NCBI RefSeq assembly: GCF_003148885.1
Contig: NZ_QGHD01000005.1
Location: 62,001-126,000, forward strand
Direction of reading: 5' to 3'
Origin: Hallerella porci
GTDB lineage: Bacteria > Fibrobacterota > Fibrobacteria > Fibrobacterales > Fibrobacteraceae
Length of the DNA stretch: 64,000 nucleotides
Every line of letters starts with the position of its first letter. Within the stretch, counting starts at the first letter, position 1. Made by a program: the position numbers and the translations under genes. A model generated the notes under the pieces. That model did no database searches and was not told the origin of the DNA. It saw only the letters and a list, made by a program, of their open reading frames with translations. This document shows, piece after piece, positions 52,494-63,899 of the stretch.

Positions 52494-53468
52494 TTAAAGA
52501 GCTTCTGGATTTGCTTCGCGGGAAAGTTGCAGCACGCACATGCCATCGCGAACGATTACATTATCCGGATTCAAATTGACGCGTTCCATTTGCCAGTTGC
52601 CTGTAGCCCAATGTTCCGAAAGAGTTGTGCCTTCGAAATCATCTTGCCAATCGAGCGCAAAAGTCTTCGTCGCTTCATCGTATGTGTAAACGCGGACATA
52701 ATCGATGAGCTGTTCTTGCGGACCGGCGGCAAGTTCTGCGCCGGTAAATTTGCCGACCCAGCCTGCGCTCTGCGATGCCCACAGATTAAAGCGAAGAGTT
52801 TCCGTTTCGGTGAGGAATGCAACTTGGTCGGAGTCAGCGTGAGTGCCGCGAGAGATGCCGAGAGTATCTCTGCGCACTTCAACGCTATCGATTTCCCAAG
52901 CGACATATTCCGGCGTCCAAATCATTGCGTACAAATGAAAATCTTCGGTCGCATCGTATTCGGTTTGGTGAATTTTTTCGGACGATGTATTCTTTTTAAT
53001 TTCCGGCAAGCCTTCGCGGGTAATGATATTCGACTGCCAAGAAGTTTTAGATTTTCCGAGAACTTCGATGTCGATTTCGTTCCAAGGAACATCTTCTTTC
53101 TTGTAAGAATCATCGTAGTAAAGGAACATCGAACTGACAGAACCCGGAATGGAAACCATTTTCATGCGGGCTTCGAAACGTCCGTATTTGAATTGATCAA
53201 CGCCAGAAAGTTCTGCGCCATAATACGAATATTTTTTTTGATCATAAGTTTCGTTCGGATCTACGATGGAAACCGATGAAGACGATTCCACAATCGGTTG
53301 ATCGGGAATTGTCGAAGAAGATGATTCAATCGGCTGAGTTGGAATTTCCGAAGACGAAGAAACTTCGGGAGTTTCGGGAACTTCGGGTGCAGTAGAAGAG
53401 CTGCTGCTATCTGAGCAAGCGATGAGAGTGCCCAGCGCAAGAGTCGGAAGAAGGAAAAGTTTTTTCAT
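52494..53468 (-). CDS. Circularly permuted GH16 1,3-1,4-beta-glucanase lipoprotein
   Basis: 324 residues from ATG 53468, giving a lipoprotein signal (GTLIAC, C18), then a Ser/Pro/Glu linker (about 19-68). The catalytic domain has the GH16 motif EIDIE (E131, D133, E135) in WNEIDIEVLGK. The segment that begins ordinary GH16 enzymes (WQDDFEGTTLSEHW, NWQMERVNL) lies here at the C-terminus, after YVRVYTYDEA. This is the same permutation known for the F. succinogenes lichenase, whose YGKFEARMKM and SSMFLY motifs also match. It should cleave mixed-linkage beta-glucan. Lipid anchoring and an N-terminal linker differ from that enzyme. Confidence 0.93.
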   Translation of the reverse strand: MKKLFLLPTLALGTLIACSDSSSSSTAPEVPETPEVSSSSEIPTQPIESSSSTIPDQPIVESSSSVSIVDPNETYDQKKYSYYGAELSGVDQFKYGRFEARMKMVSIPGSVSSMFLYYDDSYKKEDVPWNEIDIEVLGKSKTSWQSNIITREGLPEIKKNTSSEKIHQTEYDATEDFHLYAMIWTPEYVAWEIDSVEVRRDTLGISRGTHADSDQVAFLTETETLRFNLWASQSAGWVGKFTGAELAAGPQEQLIDYVRVYTYDEATKTFALDWQDDFEGTTLSEHWATGNWQMERVNLNPDNVIVRDGMCVLQLSREANPEAL

Positions 53469-53595
53469 AAGAACCTCGTTGTTTGTTACAGGAATCAATA
53501 TAGCTAGGCAAATCGGGCGCAGAATAATTTCGAATGTAACGAAAATAAAAATCTGTATCAAGTGTAGCTTTTATAAAAATTTGTTCAAAATGAAA

Positions 53596-53630
53596 ATCAG
53601 CCTCCGCTCTGGTTCTTGAGGGAGGCTGAT
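53596..53630 (-). terminator. Terminator of the TIGR02147/lipoprotein/PAS operon
   Basis: A perfect 10-bp stem (ATCAGCCTCC, 53596-53605, with 53621-53630) has a T-rich run on its minus-strand exit side. It lies 25 bp after the PAS gene stop. Confidence 0.8.
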
Positions 53631-53655
53631 AATAGATAGGAGTTAGCAGTAAAAT

Positions 53656-54045
53656 TTAAAGAGCAAGACTTGCAGGCTGTTCGCCGAGAGATTCTTCAAT
53701 GAGAGAAGATGTGCGGGAATCATCTAATGGTTCTGCGGTATCGGCGAGTTTGCGAAAAGTATTGCAATAAATTGTTTTGCCGTTTTCGTTTTCGGCGTGG
53801 CGAGAAATGCTTGCAAGAAAACTGCGACCTTTGCGATTTTTCAAGCGCACAATAAAATGCGCTGCTTTGGCGGAAGCCTTTTGTAAAAAGGTAATCCAGT
53901 CTTGATCGTAGCGGAAAATATCGCGGATATAATGCCACTCGATTTCGTGTTCTTGGTAGCCGAAAAGACTGCAAAATTTTTTGTTCGCCGATAGAAGGCG
54001 ACCGTGAGTATTGATTTCGCAGAATGCGGATTCTTTGATTTTCAT
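53656..54045 (-). CDS. Small stand-alone PAS-domain protein
   Basis: 129 residues, single PAS domain (about 5-100) with FCEINTHGRLLSANKKFCSLFGY and AHFIVRLKNRKGRSF. No kinase, GGDEF or DNA-binding output domain is attached. A strong AGGAGGT site precedes its ATG. Third gene of an operon with a TIGR02147 regulator and a LamG lipoprotein, 9 bp after the latter, so a sensing role in that module is inferred. Confidence 0.78.
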   Translation of the reverse strand: MKIKESAFCEINTHGRLLSANKKFCSLFGYQEHEIEWHYIRDIFRYDQDWITFLQKASAKAAHFIVRLKNRKGRSFLASISRHAENENGKTIYCNTFRKLADTAEPLDDSRTSSLIEESLGEQPASLAL

Positions 54046-54054
54046 TCGGACCTC

Positions 54055-55341
54055 CTATTCGTTGTAACGGTAAATGGCATCGATGTCTTCGATGGATGTG
54101 GTGTAAATTTTTACATCGTCGATGAACAAATCGAGATTTTCTTTTCCCAAATAAATGGGAATATTTTTTCCAGAAAGTTGGTGAAATTTTGTTTCTGCAG
54201 AAGCTTCACGTATTCCGTCAACATAAAGAATTGTCGAATCGCCATTCCATGTAGCCGCTAAATAATTCCAACGATTTAGAGAAATTTCATTTTTGGAAAT
54301 GGCTGCGTTTTCGCAGAGAAGAGAATCGCCGTTTCCTTCTGCAAGGAAAAATCCAAAGGCCGAGCCTTGAACGCCGCAAGTATCTTGAACGACAGCGATG
54401 CTGAAAATGGTGGAATCGCCGAAGCTGAGTTTTCCCAAAATATTTTTAATCTTCGCCGACTCAGCGGGAATATTTTGAATGTCGACCCACATTTCTATCG
54501 TGAAATTTTTTGCGCTGTCAAGGATGCCTTTATCGTTTTCGATGACGGCAAAGTCGGAGGCATTTTGCAAATGCAAAGATTTTCCGCGCTGTCTTCCGAG
54601 TTCAAGTTTTGCGTTTCCGTAAAGAGCTGCGTTTCCCGAAATGCTTCGGCTATCGTGAACGACGCCAGCATTTGCTTCGTCAAAAGTCCAATAGCCAGCG
54701 ATTTTGTATTCCGGCGAAAGCGGTAAAATCCAACGGAAAGAAGCGGGAGATTGAATCGCTTCGGAATCTAAATGATTTGCCGTCGCATCAAAAGTTTGCC
54801 CGAGAATCCAACTTTTATCGGGCGAAGAAACGGATACAGAAATTTCTCCTTCGGGAATTTGATTTAGAACAAAGTAACCATTTTCATCCGTCGTCGTTTT
54901 CCACGGAGAACCGGGAATTTGAACAGCAACTTGCGATGCAGAAATTGCTGAGCGCAAATAAACATTGCCCGAAATCGAAGTCGCCGAAACGAAATCACCA
55001 TTGCGCTGAACGCTTTTTCCGTTGAGTGAAACGGTATCGTAATAAGCAAAATGATTTGCGTTTGCGCTTAGACCGTAAAGTCCGCGGGCATTTGCTGTGA
55101 GCGAAAATTTTCCTTCGGCATCTGTCGTATCGACGAAAATCGCAGCTTCATTTTCAATCGATTGCAGTTGCATCGCAATGCGTGCTGCGACATTTCCATC
55201 GGGGAATTTTAAAATTCCTGCGACAGTATTTGTTTCTTCGGAAACGCCGCCGGCGACTTCGGTGGAACACGCAGAAAAATAAAATGCAGTTCCCAAAAAT
55301 GCGGTCAAAAGAAGCGTTGCTTTTTTCTGCAAAAATTTCAT
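54055..55341 (-). CDS. Lipoprotein with carboxypeptidase-regulatory-like and LamG domains
   Basis: 428 residues. Lipoprotein signal (FYFSAC, C25). Residues about 38-190 contain two CarboxypepD_reg-like beta-sandwiches (TDAEGKFSLTANARGLYGL, TTDENGYFVLNQIPEGE). A LamG-like domain (about 215-425) has GKSLHLQNASDFAVI, FTIEMWVDI and FIDDVKIYTTS. It is probably a surface polysaccharide-binding protein. Preceded by a strong GGAGG site and overlapping the TIGR02147 gene by 4 bp. Confidence 0.8.
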   Translation of the reverse strand: MKFLQKKATLLLTAFLGTAFYFSACSTEVAGGVSEETNTVAGILKFPDGNVAARIAMQLQSIENEAAIFVDTTDAEGKFSLTANARGLYGLSANANHFAYYDTVSLNGKSVQRNGDFVSATSISGNVYLRSAISASQVAVQIPGSPWKTTTDENGYFVLNQIPEGEISVSVSSPDKSWILGQTFDATANHLDSEAIQSPASFRWILPLSPEYKIAGYWTFDEANAGVVHDSRSISGNAALYGNAKLELGRQRGKSLHLQNASDFAVIENDKGILDSAKNFTIEMWVDIQNIPAESAKIKNILGKLSFGDSTIFSIAVVQDTCGVQGSAFGFFLAEGNGDSLLCENAAISKNEISLNRWNYLAATWNGDSTILYVDGIREASAETKFHQLSGKNIPIYLGKENLDLFIDDVKIYTTSIEDIDAIYRYNE

Positions 55342-56177
55342 GCAGCGCCTCCTTCTACATTATCGTTGAGTTTTTGCGTCAACGGAAAAAATTGCACATT
55401 CAATCGATAAACGCGATCGGTTTCGTTTGTTTCTGCGGCGATGTTTGCGATGCGGCGACGAAATTCAGCAATTTCAGCGCGAATGCGATCGAAAGATTTT
55501 TCGGGAATTCCAAAAGTGAGACCAGAAATATCGCGCTCAGCAACGGGGACTTTTTCCAAGGATTGCACAGCGAGTTCGCCCATTTGACGATGCATATCGC
55601 GAATAGCGAGCGAAGGCATTTCCAAATTTCCGGTAGAAAGGCGGCGGTCGGTTTGTGTAAAGTGTCCGTTTTCTTCGCGGAGAAATCCGGCATCGGTTAA
55701 AACGCGAATCGCTTTGCGGATTTCTTTTGTCGAAGATTCAAAAGTTAATTTATTTGCAATTTGAGAAATTTTATTTTCTTGAATTTGCGGAAGCGCTTCG
55801 CGCAAAACGGGAGAAAGCCACGATTCATAATAATCGTATTGTTCTTCGCCGACGATTTTGACTTGATTTGCTTTTGCGATTTCACGCAGATTTTTGAATA
55901 ATTCTTTTTTCTTCGCCGCATTTTTTTCTTGATTCATTTGAACCAAAAAACGAAAATAGAGCAAATCACTTCCGGTAAGTCCGATGGCATTTGCGACGCG
56001 CTCTGCGCCCGCTTCCGAAAGGTTTGCTTTTCCTTCGATGACGAGTTTTAAAAAAACGGGAGAACTGTAGCCGGCGAGCTTTGAAAATTCACGATACGAG
56101 AATCCCGAAGGCTTACGTTCTGCGTAGAACGCCTTCAAAAATTCGCGGAAATCGTTGAATTGCATCACGGGCTGCAT
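55338..56177 (-). CDS. TIGR02147-family regulator
   Basis: 279 residues from ATG 56177, the start giving the family opening MQPVMQFNDFREFLKAFY; upstream in-frame codons extend into an AT-rich promoter. N-terminal helix-turn-helix-like part (FSKLAGYSSPVFLKLVIEGK, about 25-60) and C-terminal helices with TFGIPEKSFDRIRAEI. TIGR02147 is a Fibrobacter paralogous family, described as conserved with unknown function; a transcriptional role is inferred from the helix-turn-helix-like part. It heads an operon with a lipoprotein and a PAS protein. Confidence 0.88.
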   Translation of the reverse strand: MQPVMQFNDFREFLKAFYAERKPSGFSYREFSKLAGYSSPVFLKLVIEGKANLSEAGAERVANAIGLTGSDLLYFRFLVQMNQEKNAAKKKELFKNLREIAKANQVKIVGEEQYDYYESWLSPVLREALPQIQENKISQIANKLTFESSTKEIRKAIRVLTDAGFLREENGHFTQTDRRLSTGNLEMPSLAIRDMHRQMGELAVQSLEKVPVAERDISGLTFGIPEKSFDRIRAEIAEFRRRIANIAAETNETDRVYRLNVQFFPLTQKLNDNVEGGAA

Positions 56178-56313
56178 AAGAATAATATAGATAAATTTAT
56201 CATGAAAAGCAAATTTTTTAAGATACAAAATTGGCTAAATTTTGCTAAAAATGGATGAAATTTGAAAATTTGTCTAAAATATGAAAATTCTATAATACAA
56301 AATGAGACGAAAA

Positions 56314-56334
56314 AGCGCCCGCAAAGCGGGCGCT
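56314..56334 (-). terminator. Terminator after GH5 gene
   Basis: A perfect 9-bp stem (AGCGCCCGC, 56314-56322, with 56326-56334) and minus-strand T run directly follow the GH5 stop. The gap 56178-56357 otherwise is AT-rich and probably holds the promoter of the TIGR02147 gene. Confidence 0.85.
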
Positions 56335-56357
56335 GCGGAAACTTTTCCCGAAAGAAT

Positions 56358-58220
56358 TTACTTCACCAAAATTCCCATTTGAGAATTGCCGACTTTCAAA
56401 ATGTACTTGCCGGAATTTTGCAAATTCACATTGAAATTTTCATTTGCAATTCCCGATTTCACAACTTGTCCAAGCATATTTGTAATGCTAAAGCGTGAAC
56501 CATTTTGAATGCCGTGAACGCTTAAATTTTTTCCTTGGATCGACACTTGTAAATGATGAATCGAATTTACTTTTTGAAGTTTTGTATAACCCGAAATATC
56601 TTCGATGCATTTTAAATTTTCAATCCAAAGAGAAGTATCAAACATATCATTTGTTACAACAAATCGGAAAGCCGTTGCTGCATCGATAACAGAATTTGTT
56701 GGGATTCCTTTTTGCCAGCCGTTGCTCATCATCCAACCTAAATCGATGTGAACCGTTTCCCATTCGGGTGCGTATGGCATTTCTACAAACGGATAATCCC
56801 AAACGCCTTCGCCAAAATATTCAACGCTTGCGTTCCAATCGTAGTACAAAGTAAATTGATGATTTGCTCCTTTATATTGATAACTCACCATTTTGCATTT
56901 TGATAAATCAACGCCTTCGCCAAAGGTATATTCGGCGCGAATGTAAGGCGCATAATCAAATCCCGTTCCGACGGTATCCAATTTCATGTTATCCATTTTA
57001 ACAGTTGTTTCGGTTGAATTATTGGTGAATGTGGAATTTCCTTTGTCGCCTTGTTCATCGCCGTAATCATCGATGTCGCTTGTGGTACTCCACTTGCCAG
57101 CGATTTCTGAAGATGTTCCGTAAGTGACTAAATTAGGCAATTTATCTGTAATCGAATTTTCCCAAATTAAATTTTTTGTATAAGTGCGTTTCGCCGGTAA
57201 AATATTTGCTTTGATATAATTATCGATGGCGTTATCTTCTAAGAAAGGTTTTTCGACATCCCATTTTGCACAGGATAATTTCTTTTCATTTGTCCAAGCT
57301 AAAAATTTTTCAAGTCTTTCTTTGTGAGTTTCATTTTCAAAAATTTTATCGATGCCGCCCCATTCTGTGACAAAAACCGAAAGCCCTGCAGCGAGCGCTT
57401 TATTGGAACTTTCAATGTGATCGGGCATATTGTGCAAATCGGCGTAAAAGTGATAAGTGTAAGCGACGTTTTTATCGTCAATGGGATTTGCGACTGCGTC
57501 GCCTGCTTGCGATGACCACATCGGAGTTCCTACGACAATTAAGTTGTCGGAATATTTTCGAATCTCAGGAATTACGGTGTCGGCGTAAGCTTTCAAATCT
57601 GCCCAAGATTCGCTCACCGGTTCATTATAAATTTCAAAAATCACATGTGGATATTTTCCGTAGCGTTCCGCCATTTTTCCAAAAAATTTTGCAGCATCGT
57701 TTGCGGTAAAGCATGTTTTGTTATCGTTAAATTCATATTTGGGTTTTTCGCCTTGATGAATGCAATTGTATAAGCCGCCTTCGGAATGCCAATCGATTAA
57801 AACATAGACATCGTTTGCAATTGCCGCTTGAACAACGCTATCCATTTGCGATTCAAAATACGCAGGGCGAGTCATATAGCCGCCATGTCCCCAAGGCGGC
57901 ACAACTCCCATTGCAGAACGCACGAGTTCAACATTCCAAGAAGCTACTAAAGTATCGATAAAAGTTTTTCCGTAAAATGCAGAACCATACGGCCAATACA
58001 TACTCCATGTTAAACTCATGCCGCGCACTTGAACTTCGGAGCCGTCCACAATTCCTTTGACGGAACCGTAAATGCGCCCTTCGCCCGCAGCATTTTTTCC
58101 CGCTTGCAAAGCGCCGTATTCGCTTACAGGACCTACGCGTTTTGGCGTAATCGTTGCAAATGCAGAACTTGCAAATGCAATCGCGCAAATACACGCTAAA
58201 GCTAAATTGAATTTTTTCAT
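56358..58220 (-). CDS. GH5 endoglucanase with CBM-like and C-terminal sorting-like domain
   Basis: 620 residues from ATG 58220 (AAAGGA site upstream). Signal peptide about 1-22 (SSAFA). The GH5 barrel (about 30-345) has the acid/base E200 in IFEIYNEP and nucleophile E286 in FVTEWGG, with WHSEGG typical of subfamily 2 cellulases. Residues about 360-545 form a CBM11-like beta-sandwich. The last 70 residues (FSITNMLGQVVKSG, GKYILKVG) resemble a type IX secretion sorting domain. Expected to attack beta-1,4-glucan. It lies 35 bp after a lipoprotein gene in a TIGR02147 operon. Confidence 0.93.
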   Translation of the reverse strand: MKKFNLALACICAIAFASSAFATITPKRVGPVSEYGALQAGKNAAGEGRIYGSVKGIVDGSEVQVRGMSLTWSMYWPYGSAFYGKTFIDTLVASWNVELVRSAMGVVPPWGHGGYMTRPAYFESQMDSVVQAAIANDVYVLIDWHSEGGLYNCIHQGEKPKYEFNDNKTCFTANDAAKFFGKMAERYGKYPHVIFEIYNEPVSESWADLKAYADTVIPEIRKYSDNLIVVGTPMWSSQAGDAVANPIDDKNVAYTYHFYADLHNMPDHIESSNKALAAGLSVFVTEWGGIDKIFENETHKERLEKFLAWTNEKKLSCAKWDVEKPFLEDNAIDNYIKANILPAKRTYTKNLIWENSITDKLPNLVTYGTSSEIAGKWSTTSDIDDYGDEQGDKGNSTFTNNSTETTVKMDNMKLDTVGTGFDYAPYIRAEYTFGEGVDLSKCKMVSYQYKGANHQFTLYYDWNASVEYFGEGVWDYPFVEMPYAPEWETVHIDLGWMMSNGWQKGIPTNSVIDAATAFRFVVTNDMFDTSLWIENLKCIEDISGYTKLQKVNSIHHLQVSIQGKNLSVHGIQNGSRFSITNMLGQVVKSGIANENFNVNLQNSGKYILKVGNSQMGILVK

Positions 58221-58255
58221 GATCTTTCCTTTTTGAAGTGTAAATTCTGAGCTAA

Positions 58256-59443
58256 TCAAAATCGCATGCCTAAAGCCGGCCACATACTCGGAGAAATTCC
58301 GTCAAAGCGAATATTATCCAAATAAATTTCCGCATTGCTTCGCACCATAAAATTGATAGAATTCACCGCAAGAAGTTCGCAATCAAAATCGTCTGCGGTA
58401 AATGTAAAGTGCTGCCATGCAGATTTTAAAACGGCTGGACTCGTTTCGTGAAATTCGCGTTTCCCATCGACGCCTCTTTTCGTAATTTGCAAATAAAGTT
58501 CGCCTTCGCCTTTGGCGTCAAATGAAATCGCCGTCGCATTTCGCAAATCATAAAATGCAAACATTTCATTTTCATCGAAGTCATCGCCAATGCTAAATCC
58601 TGCAACGCCGTAATGTCCGACGGTTTCTTCGTCAATCGTAAATTTCAAATGAAGACTGCTTCCTGTTTTTGCAGAATCGCCAGTCACTAAAAGATTTTTA
58701 CTGGTGATGCCTTCGCTTACGCGGCTTCCGCCACCTTGCAAAGAATCGGTGCAAATAAACCACCAACCTTGTCCGAAACTTTTTCCTAAAAGAGTTTGCT
58801 TTGTTTTCCAGTTTTCAAAATCTTCGACGACGGTAAAAATTTTTTCGGCGACATCGATGTGATTTGTCTTTGCGTCTTCGCTTAAATCCGTTTGCATTTG
58901 ATACGAAAATTTTCCAAAATAGCCTTCGACAAAAGCGTAATGAACTCCCGAGGGAAGCGATTCAAATTCAAAATTTCCGTTTGTATCAGTCGTAGTTAAT
59001 TTATCTAAAATTTGAATCTTTACATTGGGCAAAGGCCTTCCGTTATTTAAAATTTTTCCTTTTAACGGAACACTTTTTTCAAGCGATAAATTTTGCGAAG
59101 GCGCGCGATTAAAATCTACCCAACGCATCGCCGACAAAGAATCGCCCGAATACGTTTCGATGAGTTGAATCGAAGAATTATCGTTTTCCGAAATTGTCGA
59201 AGTAAATTTCAAGGAGCCCGCTTCATCAAATTGATTTTCGTAAGCGACTTTCATCGAATCTTCATTTAAAATCCACACGCGTGCAGAGGCATGAGTAAAT
59301 GGATTTCCCGCTGCATTCGTTGCGGTGATAATTCCCGCCAATTCGGTTTCGCCAGCGTTTGAACCGGTTCCGTTTGCAACCGAAGAATCGGAACAGCTAC
59401 AAAAAAATGCTGGGATTAAAATCAAAAAAGAAAAATATCTCAT
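58256..59443 (-). CDS. Lipoprotein with carboxypeptidase-regulatory-like and CBM-like domains
   Basis: 395 residues from ATG 59443, preceded by AAGGAG. Lipoprotein signal ending FFCSC (C17 likely lipidated). A carboxypeptidase-regulatory-like domain lies at about 130-200 (LPNVKIQILDKLTTTDTNG, FEFESLPSGVHYAFV). A CBM-like sandwich follows (about 215-385, WWFICTDSLQGGGSRVSEG, FMVRSNAEIYLDNIRFDG). It is a likely surface sugar-binding protein, cotranscribed with GH5. Confidence 0.8.
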   Translation of the reverse strand: MRYFSFLILIPAFFCSCSDSSVANGTGSNAGETELAGIITATNAAGNPFTHASARVWILNEDSMKVAYENQFDEAGSLKFTSTISENDNSSIQLIETYSGDSLSAMRWVDFNRAPSQNLSLEKSVPLKGKILNNGRPLPNVKIQILDKLTTTDTNGNFEFESLPSGVHYAFVEGYFGKFSYQMQTDLSEDAKTNHIDVAEKIFTVVEDFENWKTKQTLLGKSFGQGWWFICTDSLQGGGSRVSEGITSKNLLVTGDSAKTGSSLHLKFTIDEETVGHYGVAGFSIGDDFDENEMFAFYDLRNATAISFDAKGEGELYLQITKRGVDGKREFHETSPAVLKSAWQHFTFTADDFDCELLAVNSINFMVRSNAEIYLDNIRFDGISPSMWPALGMRF

Positions 59444-60282
59444 TATTTTTTCTCCTTGATTTGGGCGCGATTTACCAGCTGAAATCCGACATAACAAACA
59501 CGATCTGGATTTTTTTCTTCACGCGAAATCGCTAAAATTTTTTCACGCAATTTTGCAATTTCTTCGCGGACTTTTTCAAAACTTTCTCGAGAAAGTGAAC
59601 ACGTTACACTTGTGATGCTGCGATCATCGCTTGTGAATGCATCGTAAACTTGGGCGTTTACTTCTAAATTTTTCAAGTGGTATTTGCGTAAAATTGTCGA
59701 ACGCACGCGCGGAGGCGTTGAAATGATCGGCTGCGAAACTTTGTAAGTTCCATTTTTTTGTAGTGTGACAAATCCTGCTTGGATTAAATATTGAATGCCG
59801 CTTTGAATTTGTGGCGCACGCAAAGCGGGAGTAAACATCGCTCCGATTTTTGCAGCCGAAATTTTTGCAGGCAAGAGCGGTAATAAATCGCGCAAAACAG
59901 GATAATACCATTTCGAAAAAAATTGAAGCTTGGAATCTTGTAATGCAAATTCTTGATTTTGTGCACGCGCCGCTAAAAGTTTTTTCATATAAATTTCGCG
60001 TTCATCGATATTTTTTTCATTTCCAAATCGCACTAAATCCAAAAAATAATCCGATTCTTCGGCGGTTAATTTCCAAGACTTTGTGAGTTTTTTCGCATTT
60101 TCTAAAGAAAGTGGGCGCGCGTTATCTAAAATGCGACTAAAAAATGCAGAGCCAGAAACTTGCGAAAATTCTTGAATCGCTCGGGTTGAAAATCCTTTAG
60201 CCTGGAAATTTTCCAAAACAGTGCGGAGATATTCGCGGTAATCGAAATACATAAATACACTAATTTTGGAAACATTATTCAT
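59443..60282 (-). CDS. TIGR02147-family regulator
   Basis: 280 residues, paralogue of the gene at 55338: MYFDYREYLRTVLENF opening, a helix-turn-helix-like region (FSTRAIQEFSQVSGSAFFSRIL) and SLSRESFEKVREEIAKL near the end. Its TAA overlaps the ATG of the following lipoprotein gene. AT-rich upstream region to 60500 holds divergent promoters with PL1. Function as a transcriptional regulator of the operon is inference. Confidence 0.88.
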   Translation of the reverse strand: MNNVSKISVFMYFDYREYLRTVLENFQAKGFSTRAIQEFSQVSGSAFFSRILDNARPLSLENAKKLTKSWKLTAEESDYFLDLVRFGNEKNIDEREIYMKKLLAARAQNQEFALQDSKLQFFSKWYYPVLRDLLPLLPAKISAAKIGAMFTPALRAPQIQSGIQYLIQAGFVTLQKNGTYKVSQPIISTPPRVRSTILRKYHLKNLEVNAQVYDAFTSDDRSITSVTCSLSRESFEKVREEIAKLREKILAISREEKNPDRVCYVGFQLVNRAQIKEKK

Positions 60283-60500
60283 AGCGTTAAATATAATTAA
60301 ATAGGTAAATAATATATGTAAATTTTGTAGTTACAAATCAAAAATACATAAAAATTGGAAACATTAAATTTCGCATTTTTGGCGAAAATTTCACAATAAA
60401 CGCCAAATTCGGTGTTGTCGCTAGACTACGAGAAATTTTTCTTTTTCGTAAAATGGGAACTTTCCTCTCTAAATTTGAATGCAGCAAAAGGAGTTTTGTG

Positions 60501-62345
60501 ATGAGATGGATGAGAATTTTTTCTGCTGGAATTTCGGCGATGCTTTTGAACGCGCCGAATTCTCCAATTTGGGCGGCGTCGGCAATTCATATTCGCGGCG
60601 TGGTGACGGAAACATCTTCTGCGACAGTGATAGAAAACGCACAAGTTTCGCTAAAAAATTTTGCACTTGAAACGCAGACTAATTCTGCGGGCGAATATGC
60701 TTTGGATTCTATTTTGACTGTGGATTCTTCAAAAACGGATACGATGACAGAATCGATTTTTCACCGGATGCAGTCTAGAAATGAATCGAATTTTTCGTCT
60801 ACATCGATGCATTTTGCAGACGGTGCTGTGCAAATTGCAGTGCCGAGTTCGCGCGGATTTTATGAATGTCGATTTGATATTGCGGGGCGTTCTTTGGGAA
60901 TGCGGACTGTGCCGCAAAAGCTGAAAATGTCTGCAAAGAAAAGCGCAAAGGTGGCGTCGCTTTCTGAAGAAAATTTCTGCGATACTCTCGTTGTAGAAAA
61001 AGAAGGATTCTTCTCAAAACGAATTGTGCTTACCAATTCCGATACGGTTTTAAATATCGCTCTTGATTCAATTCCGCAAGCAAAATTTTTAAAACAAGGC
61101 GCGGGAAGTTCGAGTCAAACGATTTCACAAAATGCAGAGATTGTGCCGTTTTCATTTAAAGTTGAAAACGCTGATAGTGTCATCATCGAAAATATTCCGA
61201 AAGGAATTTCGGCAGTGTTTGATTCCAAAAATAAAACGGTTAATTTCTCGGGAAAAGTCACCGACAAAGAAGGAACTTATTCGTATAAATTAACTGCAAT
61301 CGGTGAATATTCCAAAGCAACGCGCGAAGGAAAATTCATCGTTACAAAAGAAGAAAAACCGGTTGTAAAAATTGACAGCGCAAGGGCGTGTATTCCCGAT
61401 GGCTATGCAATGGTCGATGGCGTTACCACGGGTGGCGCGGGCGGCGACACGGTTGAAGTTTCGACCTACAAAGATTTTAAAGATGCTGTTCAAGCAAAAG
61501 AAGCGAAAGTCGTTGTGGTCAAAGGCTTAATCAAAACAACGGATGGCGATGGCTACGGACTTGGAATTGCATCGAACAAAACGATTATGGGAAAAGATAG
61601 CGCCGCGACAATTTACGGCGGGCTCGCGATTAAAAATGCATCGAACATTATCATTTACAATTTAAACATCAACGGAACCTATCCAAATCCTGGTCCAAGC
61701 GATGGCATTGCGGTTGCCAATTCTCATCATATTTTTATTAGCCATTTAAACATTTGGAACGCTGAAGACGGCAATTTAGATATTACGAATAGATCGAGTT
61801 ATGTGACGGTTTCGTATGTGAAATTTTGGTACACGGATAAAAATCATCCGCATCGTTTGAATGCTTTAATCGGAAGCGGCGCCGCAGATCATCCCGAAGA
61901 TTTTGGACATTTGAAAGTTACTTATCATCATAATTGGTTTAGCACTTTGGTGAACGAACGCATGCCGCGCGTGATGTACGGAAACGCTCACATTTACAAT
62001 AATTATTACAATGCTCCGGGCAATTTATATTGCATTGGCGTGGGTTCTTACGGTTCTGCGCTCATTGAAAATAATTACTTTAAAAATGTTCAAAATCCAA
62101 TTCAATTTATGTACAACATTTACGCGTTTATTTTGCAGCGCAATAATCAATTTGAAAATACGACGGGCACGCAAGACGGAACGGCGACCGGAAAAATTTA
62201 CGGTGAAAGATACATTACCACAGACCCTTACACGCTAAAAGAAGATCCCGTAAAACTCACTTCGGTGCCTTACAAATACAAATTAGACGATGTAAAAAAT
62301 GTGGAAAATTTTGTGATGAAAAACGCTGGACCGCATAAGTTGTAA
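60501..62345 (+). CDS. Pectate lyase, PL1 family, multidomain
   Basis: 614 residues from ATG 60501, with GGAG 7 bp upstream. Signal peptide about 1-25. A carboxypeptidase-regulatory-like domain (about 28-70) and an Ig-like segment (about 205-295) precede the PL1 parallel beta-helix (about 315-600). The calcium and substrate site shows AEDGNLDITNRSSYVTVSYVKF, read in two pieces, and the catalytic region ERMPRVMYGNAHIYNNYYN with R487 and R490. It cleaves polygalacturonate by beta-elimination. An internal FDIAGRSLGM segment resembles a sorting-type motif. Divergent from the TIGR02147 gene. Confidence 0.9.
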   Translation: MRWMRIFSAGISAMLLNAPNSPIWAASAIHIRGVVTETSSATVIENAQVSLKNFALETQTNSAGEYALDSILTVDSSKTDTMTESIFHRMQSRNESNFSSTSMHFADGAVQIAVPSSRGFYECRFDIAGRSLGMRTVPQKLKMSAKKSAKVASLSEENFCDTLVVEKEGFFSKRIVLTNSDTVLNIALDSIPQAKFLKQGAGSSSQTISQNAEIVPFSFKVENADSVIIENIPKGISAVFDSKNKTVNFSGKVTDKEGTYSYKLTAIGEYSKATREGKFIVTKEEKPVVKIDSARACIPDGYAMVDGVTTGGAGGDTVEVSTYKDFKDAVQAKEAKVVVVKGLIKTTDGDGYGLGIASNKTIMGKDSAATIYGGLAIKNASNIIIYNLNINGTYPNPGPSDGIAVANSHHIFISHLNIWNAEDGNLDITNRSSYVTVSYVKFWYTDKNHPHRLNALIGSGAADHPEDFGHLKVTYHHNWFSTLVNERMPRVMYGNAHIYNNYYNAPGNLYCIGVGSYGSALIENNYFKNVQNPIQFMYNIYAFILQRNNQFENTTGTQDGTATGKIYGERYITTDPYTLKEDPVKLTSVPYKYKLDDVKNVENFVMKNAGPHKL

Positions 62346-62349
62346 AAGG

Positions 62350-62378
62350 ATTCCCCCGATGCGGGGAATTTTTTTTTG
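62350..62378 (+). terminator. Terminator of PL1 gene
   Basis: TTCCCC (62351-62356) pairs with GGGGAA (62363-62368), followed by a run of nine T, directly after the PL1 stop. Confidence 0.85.
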
Positions 62379-62456
62379 AATAAATTCTTGAACTTTTATA
62401 AACTTAAAATCGTTTGAAAGCCTTGTAAATAAAGGGCTTAAACGATTTTAGAAAAT

Positions 62457-63899
62457 TCATTTGAGTTTGTATTCTTCAAAAGCTTTAGGGTTTGCATAAA
62501 GATTAGGACCTTCCCAATCAAACAAAGGAGCACCCCATTCGCCGCTTAAAGTAGGCTCCCAAAAAAATGCTCCAATAAAACCTTTGATACTTTTGACAAG
62601 TTCATGTGTCAAGTTTCTTGTGCCATCAAAATTGTAATGCCCTTTGGAATCGCCACCATTATATTCTGCTACAATAAATTCTAAATTCGGATATTTTTGA
62701 GTTAAACTTTTAAATAAATCCATCCATTGATTTGGAGTCCCGTCGCCATAAGCTGTGTAGGCAGAAAATCCCATGACATCGGCATTTACTTTTTGAATTT
62801 CAAAAATTTCTTTCATCCACCAATTAACCGTATTTTTATTCTTGATACTTTCAATATGTAAAACGGTTTTAGTTTTTTGAGAAACATCTTTAACCGCTTT
62901 TATTCCGGCTTTAAAATATTTGGCTGCATTTGATTTTCCCATATTAGTAGACATATCACCACTGATTATGTCAGGTGCTTTTTGAAGATTTTCGCCCCAA
63001 CAATTTGTTTCAGAAGTTGGCAAATGAATTAAAATTCCTGGAGTCGTTTCGTTGCCGATTTGCACCATATCAGGCATTGTATTTTGAGCTTTTAAAGCGC
63101 TCAATAAATCATAAGTGTAATGATAAATAGAATCTTTTAATTCCTCTGAATTTTTCACATGACGCCAACGAGTCGGAATAATTTGTTTTGCAGGATCCGC
63201 CCAATTATCGCTATAATGAAGGTCGAGTAAAAAAGCCATTTTAGCTTCTTTAATTTTTTTTGCAAATTTTAAAATATGATTTTTATCGCCGTAAGATTCT
63301 GCACTATGGTCGCAGCCTTCGTAAGCATAGCCATATTTTTCACTGGGTGATACAAAAGTTCGAATTCGAATCGCATTAAATCCATAGCTTTTCAACAAAG
63401 TAAAAATATCGGTTTCTCTTTTTTGTGTATCATAAAATTTGGCATTAAATCGTTCGTATTCTTGAACTGTCGAAATATCGGCTCCATGATAAAAACTAAA
63501 ATCAAGTGGAGGTTCTCCTTTTGAAGATTTTGGAATTTCATGCTTTGAAGAAGAGGAATATTTTAAAAGTTCACTGGATGAAGACGAAATTTGTTTTACG
63601 CTAGACGAACTTTGCAAAATGATATTGCTAGAAGAAAAAGTCAAATCACTGGAAGAAATATTTTCATATTCCGACGAACTTGAATAATTTATACTGGATG
63701 AAATTTTAGATAATGAATCTTGAATTTCTGTAGAATTCATTTCACTCGATGAGCTCATTTCATACAAACTAGAAGATAATTTTAGTTCATTGGAAGGAGT
63801 CGGATTTGTACTTGAATCACTATCGCATGCGATTAAATAAATTCCCATGCAAATGCAAAAAAACAAGCAAAATAATTCTGAAATTTTTTTTGAATTCAT
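62457..63899 (-). CDS. GH53 endo-beta-1,4-galactanase lipoprotein
   Basis: 480 residues. Lipoprotein signal (YLIAC, C25), then a long Ser-rich linker (about 28-125). The GH53 barrel (about 135-480) has FYHGADISTV, LDLHYSDNWADPAKQ, acid/base E284 in QIGNE and nucleophile E412 in FIVAEYNGG. It cleaves beta-1,4-galactan side chains of pectin, complementing the PL1 enzyme. Codon use is AT-rich compared with housekeeping neighbours. About 100 bp after its start (63900-64000) hold no feature I can name. Confidence 0.93.
   Translation of the reverse strand: MNSKKISELFCLFFCICMGIYLIACDSDSSTNPTPSNELKLSSSLYEMSSSSEMNSTEIQDSLSKISSSINYSSSSEYENISSSDLTFSSSNIILQSSSSVKQISSSSSELLKYSSSSKHEIPKSSKGEPPLDFSFYHGADISTVQEYERFNAKFYDTQKRETDIFTLLKSYGFNAIRIRTFVSPSEKYGYAYEGCDHSAESYGDKNHILKFAKKIKEAKMAFLLDLHYSDNWADPAKQIIPTRWRHVKNSEELKDSIYHYTYDLLSALKAQNTMPDMVQIGNETTPGILIHLPTSETNCWGENLQKAPDIISGDMSTNMGKSNAAKYFKAGIKAVKDVSQKTKTVLHIESIKNKNTVNWWMKEIFEIQKVNADVMGFSAYTAYGDGTPNQWMDLFKSLTQKYPNLEFIVAEYNGGDSKGHYNFDGTRNLTHELVKSIKGFIGAFFWEPTLSGEWGAPLFDWEGPNLYANPKAFEEYKLK

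Follow-up and report, generated by a model that had tools for sequence, protein, structure and literature searches.

Large families of paralogous helix-turn-helix (HTH) regulators are known from Streptomyces, in which each WhiJ-like regulator is encoded beside a DUF397 partner of its own. TIGR02147 (Fsuc_second)/DUF4423 is likewise catalogued by NCBI as a paralogous family, and two of its members, regulators A and B, are encoded in the 64,000-nucleotide stretch analysed here (the window; G000:C5:62001-126000), which lies within the 2.85-Mb genome of Hallerella porci. This bacterium belongs to the Fibrobacterota, key cellulose degraders of the rumen and gut. As stated in a preliminary description of the window, the two regulator genes head units with the same gene order, namely regulator A, lipoprotein A and a small PAS-domain protein (unit A), and regulator B, lipoprotein B and a glycoside hydrolase family 5 (GH5) cellulase (unit B).

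Our literature search, in which most subscription papers were not searchable, found no paper naming TIGR02147, no function, operator or partner described for TIGR02147/DUF4423, and no account of how Fibrobacterota regulate their polysaccharide-degrading enzymes. DUF4423 appeared in a single table entry, for Bdellovibrio Bd3700, which is raised during growth in prey (PMC12546842). The present analysis assigns a probable role to the family and names concrete candidate operators: judging from the sequences, TIGR02147 proteins are probably local transcription factors for a partner surface glycan-binding lipoprotein and for linked glycanases.

Pairing of TIGR02147 regulators with lipoproteins

TIGR02147 was present in 54 of the 61 sampled Fibrobacterota genomes, with up to 39 copies per genome. 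We inspected 154 of these genes across the phylum (batches of 92 and 62, adjudicated by eye) and found a lipoprotein gene directly downstream of 144; four more adjoin a lipoprotein gene in convergent, divergent or lipoprotein-first order (the last at L067). This pairing is far beyond chance, as only about 40 of the 316 open reading frames (ORFs) on a 396-kb contig of the H. porci genome were lipoprotein-like. The earlier proposal that the regulator and its lipoprotein form a unit is thus borne out, since 148 of the 154 genes have, rather than lack, an adjacent lipoprotein gene.

The commonest junction is a 4-bp ATGA overlap (37 of 85 pairs scored), and overlaps of 1-4 nt were seen in about half of the scored pairs. 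In the window the overlap is 4 bp in unit A and 1 bp in unit B, in agreement with the preliminary description. Five regulator-lipoprotein pairs stand in tandem inside 17 kb at one locus (L195; G055:C3:143001-162999), indicating that the pair was duplicated as a unit. At another (L142; G033:C1:1353081-1355557), a fragmentary regulator gene is followed by an intact lipoprotein gene with the N-terminal box described below, which suggests the recent decay of one regulator. A global mirror-tree test of pair coevolution gave weak correlations (r 0.14 for the box, 0.20 for the ectodomain) and is not used as support.

Over the full TIGR02147 hidden Markov model (272 positions, cut-off 50 bits), regulators A and B score 250.6 and 184.7 bits, respectively. 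DUF4423/TIGR02147 were the only matches above cut-off in either protein, and no kinase, sigma or anti-sigma domain was found, so that a two-component system, a hybrid two-component system (HTCS) or an extracytoplasmic function (ECF) sigma/anti-sigma pair was rejected. The structure model of regulator A predicts an XRE-like HTH, a winged helix and a helical C-terminus. The HTH (model residues 27-100) resembles XRE domains of the HigA/C.BclI type with Foldseek probabilities up to 1.0, albeit with E-values of only ~0.1, and the full-length Foldseek comparison against PDB returned no whole-protein relative at E<0.001. We also rejected an RRNPP peptide-pheromone regulator, because the C-terminus consists of a winged helix and long helices with neither a Pfam TPR match nor a full-length PDB match. 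The TIGR02147 protein would then be a cytoplasmic DNA-binding regulator, composed of an XRE-like HTH and the DUF4423 winged helix. HigA antitoxins being the best Foldseek matches of the HTH, and the gene order being overlapping, a toxin-antitoxin-like pair might come to mind; this is hardly credible for an exported lipoprotein partner whose domains are of the binding type and include no toxin domain, and for a regulator of 280 aa with a second winged helix.

Putative operators and the probable direction of control

The regulators of one orthologous clade (L004, L092-L094 and L096) are seemingly orphan. The H. porci genome also holds one boxed lipoprotein gene without a regulator (C1:292076; L117), and a search with this protein recovered loci in which an orphan-clade regulator and a boxed lipoprotein are neighbours, divergent or convergent, in 10 of the 20 loci fetched, all from genera other than that of the window. 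In several more genomes the two lie no more than 3 kb apart. Because they are neighbours in other genera, the orphan regulator and the orphan boxed lipoprotein belong together; no examined genome of the window's genus has them linked.

An alignment of four species showed a palindrome, GTTGT-N6-ACAAC, conserved upstream of the orphan-clade regulator, and ATTGTC-N5-GACAAC-type sites precede the unlinked boxed lipoprotein gene in the window's genus. Over all genera, the palindrome RTTGTYYNNRRACAAY (core TTGT-N6-ACAA) was found upstream of 17 of 17 regulators, at -69 in most, and upstream of 16 of 20 partner lipoproteins, including all six unlinked ones in the window's genus; shuffles give an expectation of 0.1-0.2 sites. 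Sites matching TTGTNTNTNGACAA are rare, with four in the H. porci genome versus none in the control. That two unlinked genes share the site argues most strongly for a pathway-specific transcription factor, since the sharing cannot come from operon structure. The site was also tested independently of the alignment, at the partner gene that is unlinked and in genera other than the window's.

The orphan-clade site also precedes genes for polysaccharide lyase family 11 (PL11) rhamnogalacturonan lyases, PL10 pectate lyases and PF00544-type (PL1-type) pectate lyases, and a GH43 gene. In H. porci the genes behind such sites are the boxed lipoprotein gene (with a PL11 gene adjoining), a gene for a pectate-lyase-like protein without a lyase Pfam match, and GH43. 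Pectin is the probable substrate for this clade. The locus at L117:13476-18282 (C1:292076-296882), where a boxed LamG lipoprotein gene is followed by one for a PL11 rhamnogalacturonan lyase and the putative operator of the pectin clade lies at C1:292009, is a probable pectin-response locus. Further TTGT..ACAA-type matches (L316, L317, L325, L334 and L343) lack a plausible target and probably arose by chance.

Eleven regulator orthogroups were compared in the window's genus. Each has a distinct conserved upstream motif, cluster 11 excepted, for which the alignment gave no clear upstream motif. Examples are TTGCAAAA-N2-CTTTGCAA, CGTATTC-N5-GAATACG and TGGACA-N3-[AT]GTCCA; the motifs have few matches at other groups, and the putative sites usually start 66-75 nt upstream of the regulator start. 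The putative site of regulator A, which has orthologues in six species, is located at its own promoter: TTTTGTATCAT lies at about -67 in all six, in its conserved form in five and with a single-base difference in the window; two of the species have another copy 72 nt further upstream. The putative operator of regulator B, TGTTTCC-N8-TGTATT, occurs twice, with a spacing of 89-91 bp in each species that shows both copies, and the only exact matches in the H. porci genome are the two at its own promoter.

The positions of a TAnnTT element peak 11-15 nt ahead of the regulator ATG, and such an element falls within -30 to -4 in 51 of 67 genes, as against 21.8 in shuffles. In the window's genus this element occurs without a Shine-Dalgarno sequence upstream of TIGR02147 genes (e.g., 56178-56200 and 60283-60300 in the window), and a Shine-Dalgarno site was looked for 5' of the genes for regulators A and B and was found at neither. 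The position of the element and the lack of a Shine-Dalgarno site argue that the regulator mRNAs are probably leaderless, unlike those of the downstream genes. If so, the putative sites would lie where activators usually bind, and the regulator is probably an activator, since its sites usually lie 66-75 nt upstream of such a start. Each regulator would recognise a private operator and control its own operon together with the partner lipoprotein gene, and some would also control degradative enzymes, the pectin and rhamnogalacturonan lyases in the orphan clade and GH5 within the operon of unit B. These comparisons suggest that each regulator activates expression of its partner and that at least one also activates pectin-degrading enzymes. 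If this is true, the regulon of each regulator can be predicted separately.

Several points weigh against this account. Six of the 154 regulators (L004, L093, L055, L136, L176 and L184) lack an adjacent partner lipoprotein, and we know of no effector pocket in DUF4423. The orthogroup motifs, except the orphan-clade site, were found in the same alignments that are used to describe them, and the same site at a regulator's own gene and at target genes was seen in the orphan clade only. In the proteome of F. succinogenes, four carboxypeptidase-regulatory-like lipoproteins were lower on cellulose than on glucose (PMC6851124); these may be TIGR02147 partners.

The lipoprotein box and the variable ectodomains

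Immediately behind the lipidated cysteine, the partner lipoproteins have in common a box, AG[G/T]..ET.N, or in full C-x(2-8)-[AS]G-[GT]-x(0-2)-[ST]-[ED]-[TE]-x-N-x-[IV]-A with variants across 11 families. This box has not been described previously and is essentially restricted to TIGR02147 partners, a specificity that rests on the 396-kb contig mentioned above and on a genome-wide profile search. On the contig, with its ~40 lipoprotein-like ORFs, the box occurs only in two TIGR02147 partners and one orphan partner. The profile of signal and box (A3) recovered as many boxed proteins as there are regulators in the H. porci genome (11 of each; one protein is weak, E 0.006), and 7 for 7 and 12 for 13 in two other genomes (G027 and G033, respectively). 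On inspection, weaker matches at C1:306613 and on C3 and C15 turned out to be signal peptides that lack the box. The box can be used for finding partner lipoproteins.

Known lipoprotein sorting or export signals directly follow the lipidated cysteine, as the box does, and its role is most likely in sorting or docking. It is quite possible that the box is nothing but such a signal, marking one class of lipoproteins that the regulators happen to serve, which would be compatible with a role of the regulators as local transcription factors. The signal would then have to be private to TIGR02147 partners, because it is absent from other H. porci lipoproteins, the window's GH16 and GH53 lipoproteins among them.

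Behind the box the ectodomains vary. CarboxypepD_reg is found in 71 of 110 partners, followed by LamG, leucine-rich repeats (LRR), propeller, Kelch, CBM_4_9 and others. Lipoprotein A combines Laminin_G_3 with two CarboxypepD_reg stretches. In the model of lipoprotein B, with a mean predicted local distance difference test (pLDDT) score of 67 and 84-93 over most of residues 301-380, the C-terminal domain finds its best PDB match in CBM11 (1v0a; Foldseek E 1.5e-7, TMt 0.70). Both lipoproteins are thus predicted to hold a carbohydrate-binding fold, CBM11-like in B and Laminin_G_3 in A. Their lipobox calls (C25 in A, C17 in B) are matches to the consensus only, made without a signal-peptide predictor. 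Each lipoprotein would display a variable binding module (LamG, CBM11-like, LRR, Kelch or propeller), presumably at the cell surface, behind a transthyretin-like stalk.

The preliminary description proposed a surface-sensing module that perhaps reports on bound polysaccharide. Its link to polysaccharide is supported in part, by the CBM11-like fold and GH5 in unit B and by the putative operators at pectin lyase genes in one clade. The sensing part fares less well. A lipoprotein that binds polysaccharide outside and relays a signal to its cognate cytoplasmic regulator would suit the ectodomains, which are typical binding folds (LamG, CBM_4_9, LRR, Kelch, propeller), and the one-to-one pairing that survives rearrangement. 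Nevertheless, we consider such a relay unlikely: the unit has no transmembrane partner, kinase or anti-sigma gene and would need an unseen transducer, no link across the envelope being visible; a box common to all pairs could not pass a pair-specific signal through one shared adaptor; and the operator data, which run from regulator to lipoprotein, require control in that direction only.

Comparable pairs occur in Bdellovibrionota, whose genomes were located by a 16S primer pattern and hold 3-16 TIGR02147 matches each. Of the ~47 TIGR02147 genes with room beside them, about 19 adjoin or overlap the gene of an exported protein (L205-L241), and a G-N-G-G type box opens the mature part of 13 of those ~19 partners. 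A crude signal-peptide test on 400 kb of B. bacteriovorus showed the GNGG box next to TIGR02147 genes only. Long versions of the regulator (>300 aa) have no partner. By this comparison, the Bdellovibrionota pairing is related to that of the Fibrobacterota, with a different exported box. A second class of partners there is a lipoprotein family beginning CAS.HPG.

A box at the mature N-terminus of lipoproteins in Fibrobacterota, and also of non-lipoprotein exports in Bdellovibrionota, could have another meaning. The regulator might bind the box region of its unexported partner precursor, which would act as effector, and so sense the export load. The overlap of the genes in about half of the pairs would fit, as would a weak correlation between regulator and box distances with the ectodomain allowed for (partial r 0.095, p 0.019). 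We regard this feedback as improbable, given that the correlation is small, that reading the part in which partners are most alike would invite cross-talk among 11-39 paralogues, and that pairs have survived unlinking, which makes co-translation impossible. Only marginally better odds can be given to a wider proposal, by which a phylum-wide and previously undescribed control of fibre degradation, with a broad counterpart in Bdellovibrionota, would use the N-terminal box of the partner in signalling, the regulator reading the partner's precursor or export state. If this long shot were true, a one-component cytoplasmic factor would sense events outside the cell without a transmembrane sensor.

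Units A and B and their relation to known systems

The features of both units are listed in the table. The preliminary description had claimed strong ribosome-binding sites for each downstream gene, which holds for lipoprotein A (GGAGG), the PAS gene (GGAGG) and lipoprotein B (GGAG); the GH5 site (AAGGAAAG) is moderate only. The gap from lipoprotein to third gene is 9 nt in unit A and 35 nt in unit B, and for GH5 the ATG at 58220 suffices, the longer GTG ORF not being needed. The strong terminator between the GH5 and regulator A genes indicates that the units are separate. Both three-gene orders recur in a second species of the genus (G033; L143, unit A with PAS, and L266, unit B with GH5), in which the units lie 450 kb apart, so that their side-by-side placement in the window is incidental. 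We rejected the third gene as a fixed part of the unit: most pairs of the H. porci genome stop after the lipoprotein, although within the genus PAS and GH5 have each been kept at their respective loci. The units are flanked by genes for a GH16 lipoprotein (52494-53561), a pectate-lyase protein (60453-62345) and a GH53 lipoprotein (62457-63899); the orthologous locus of G033 lacks the GH16 gene.

Table. Genes, terminator and putative operators of units A and B, in window positions
Feature	Position	Strand	Description
Regulator A	55338-56177	minus	TIGR02147/DUF4423, 279 aa, ATG start; longest ORF extends to TTG 56228
Lipoprotein A	54055-55341	minus	Lipobox C25, box CSTEVAGGVSEETNTVAG, CarboxypepD_reg, Laminin_G_3
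Small PAS-domain protein, third gene of unit A	53656-54045	minus	PAS_9, E=7.6e-8
Putative operator A, copy 1	56219-56230	minus	TTTTGTATCTTA; one base off TTTTGTATCAT
Putative operator A, copy 2	56291-56302	minus	TTTTGTATTATA
Intrinsic terminator, strong	56314-56334	minus	AGCGCCCGCTTTGCGGGCGCT-TTTTCG, between GH5 and regulator A
Regulator B	59443-60282	minus	TIGR02147/DUF4423, 279 aa; alternative start possible at 60252
Lipoprotein B	58256-59443	minus	ATG start, lipobox C17, box CSDSSVANGTGSNAGETELAG, CarboxypepD_reg, predicted C-terminal CBM11-like beta-sandwich
GH5 cellulase, third gene of unit B	56358-58220	minus	Cellulase PF00150, E=4.3e-47; weak C-terminal sorting domain of type IX secretion system (T9SS) type
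Putative operator B, copy 1	60343-60363	minus	TGTTTCCAATTTTTATGTATT, conserved in 5 species
Putative operator B, copy 2	60254-60274	minus	TGTTTCCAAAATTAGTGTATT, inside annotated first codons of regulator B

The TIGR02147 pairs resemble the WhiJ/DUF397 pairs in joining an HTH paralogue to an adjacent partner of its own; the partner is small and cytoplasmic in the latter and an exported lipoprotein in Fibrobacterota. The modelled C-terminal domain of lipoprotein B has the same fold as CBM11 of Lic26A-Cel5E from C. thermocellum (1v0a), a likeness of fold only, as the domain is carried on a lipoprotein stalk in the former and on an enzyme in the latter. Foldseek also returns surface glycan-binding protein (SGBP) B of B. 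thetaiotaomicron for lipoprotein B. The polysaccharide utilisation loci of Bacteroidota, with SusE/F and SGBP, are alike in that a local regulator stands beside a glycan-binding-type lipoprotein, with glycanases in the regulon. A Pfam scan found no SusC or SusD domain among the nine ORFs at 52494-63899. The Fibrobacterota systems further differ in that the regulator is a one-component HTH/DUF4423 protein instead of SusR, an HTCS or an ECF sigma factor, and that the lipoprotein carries an N-terminal box of its own.

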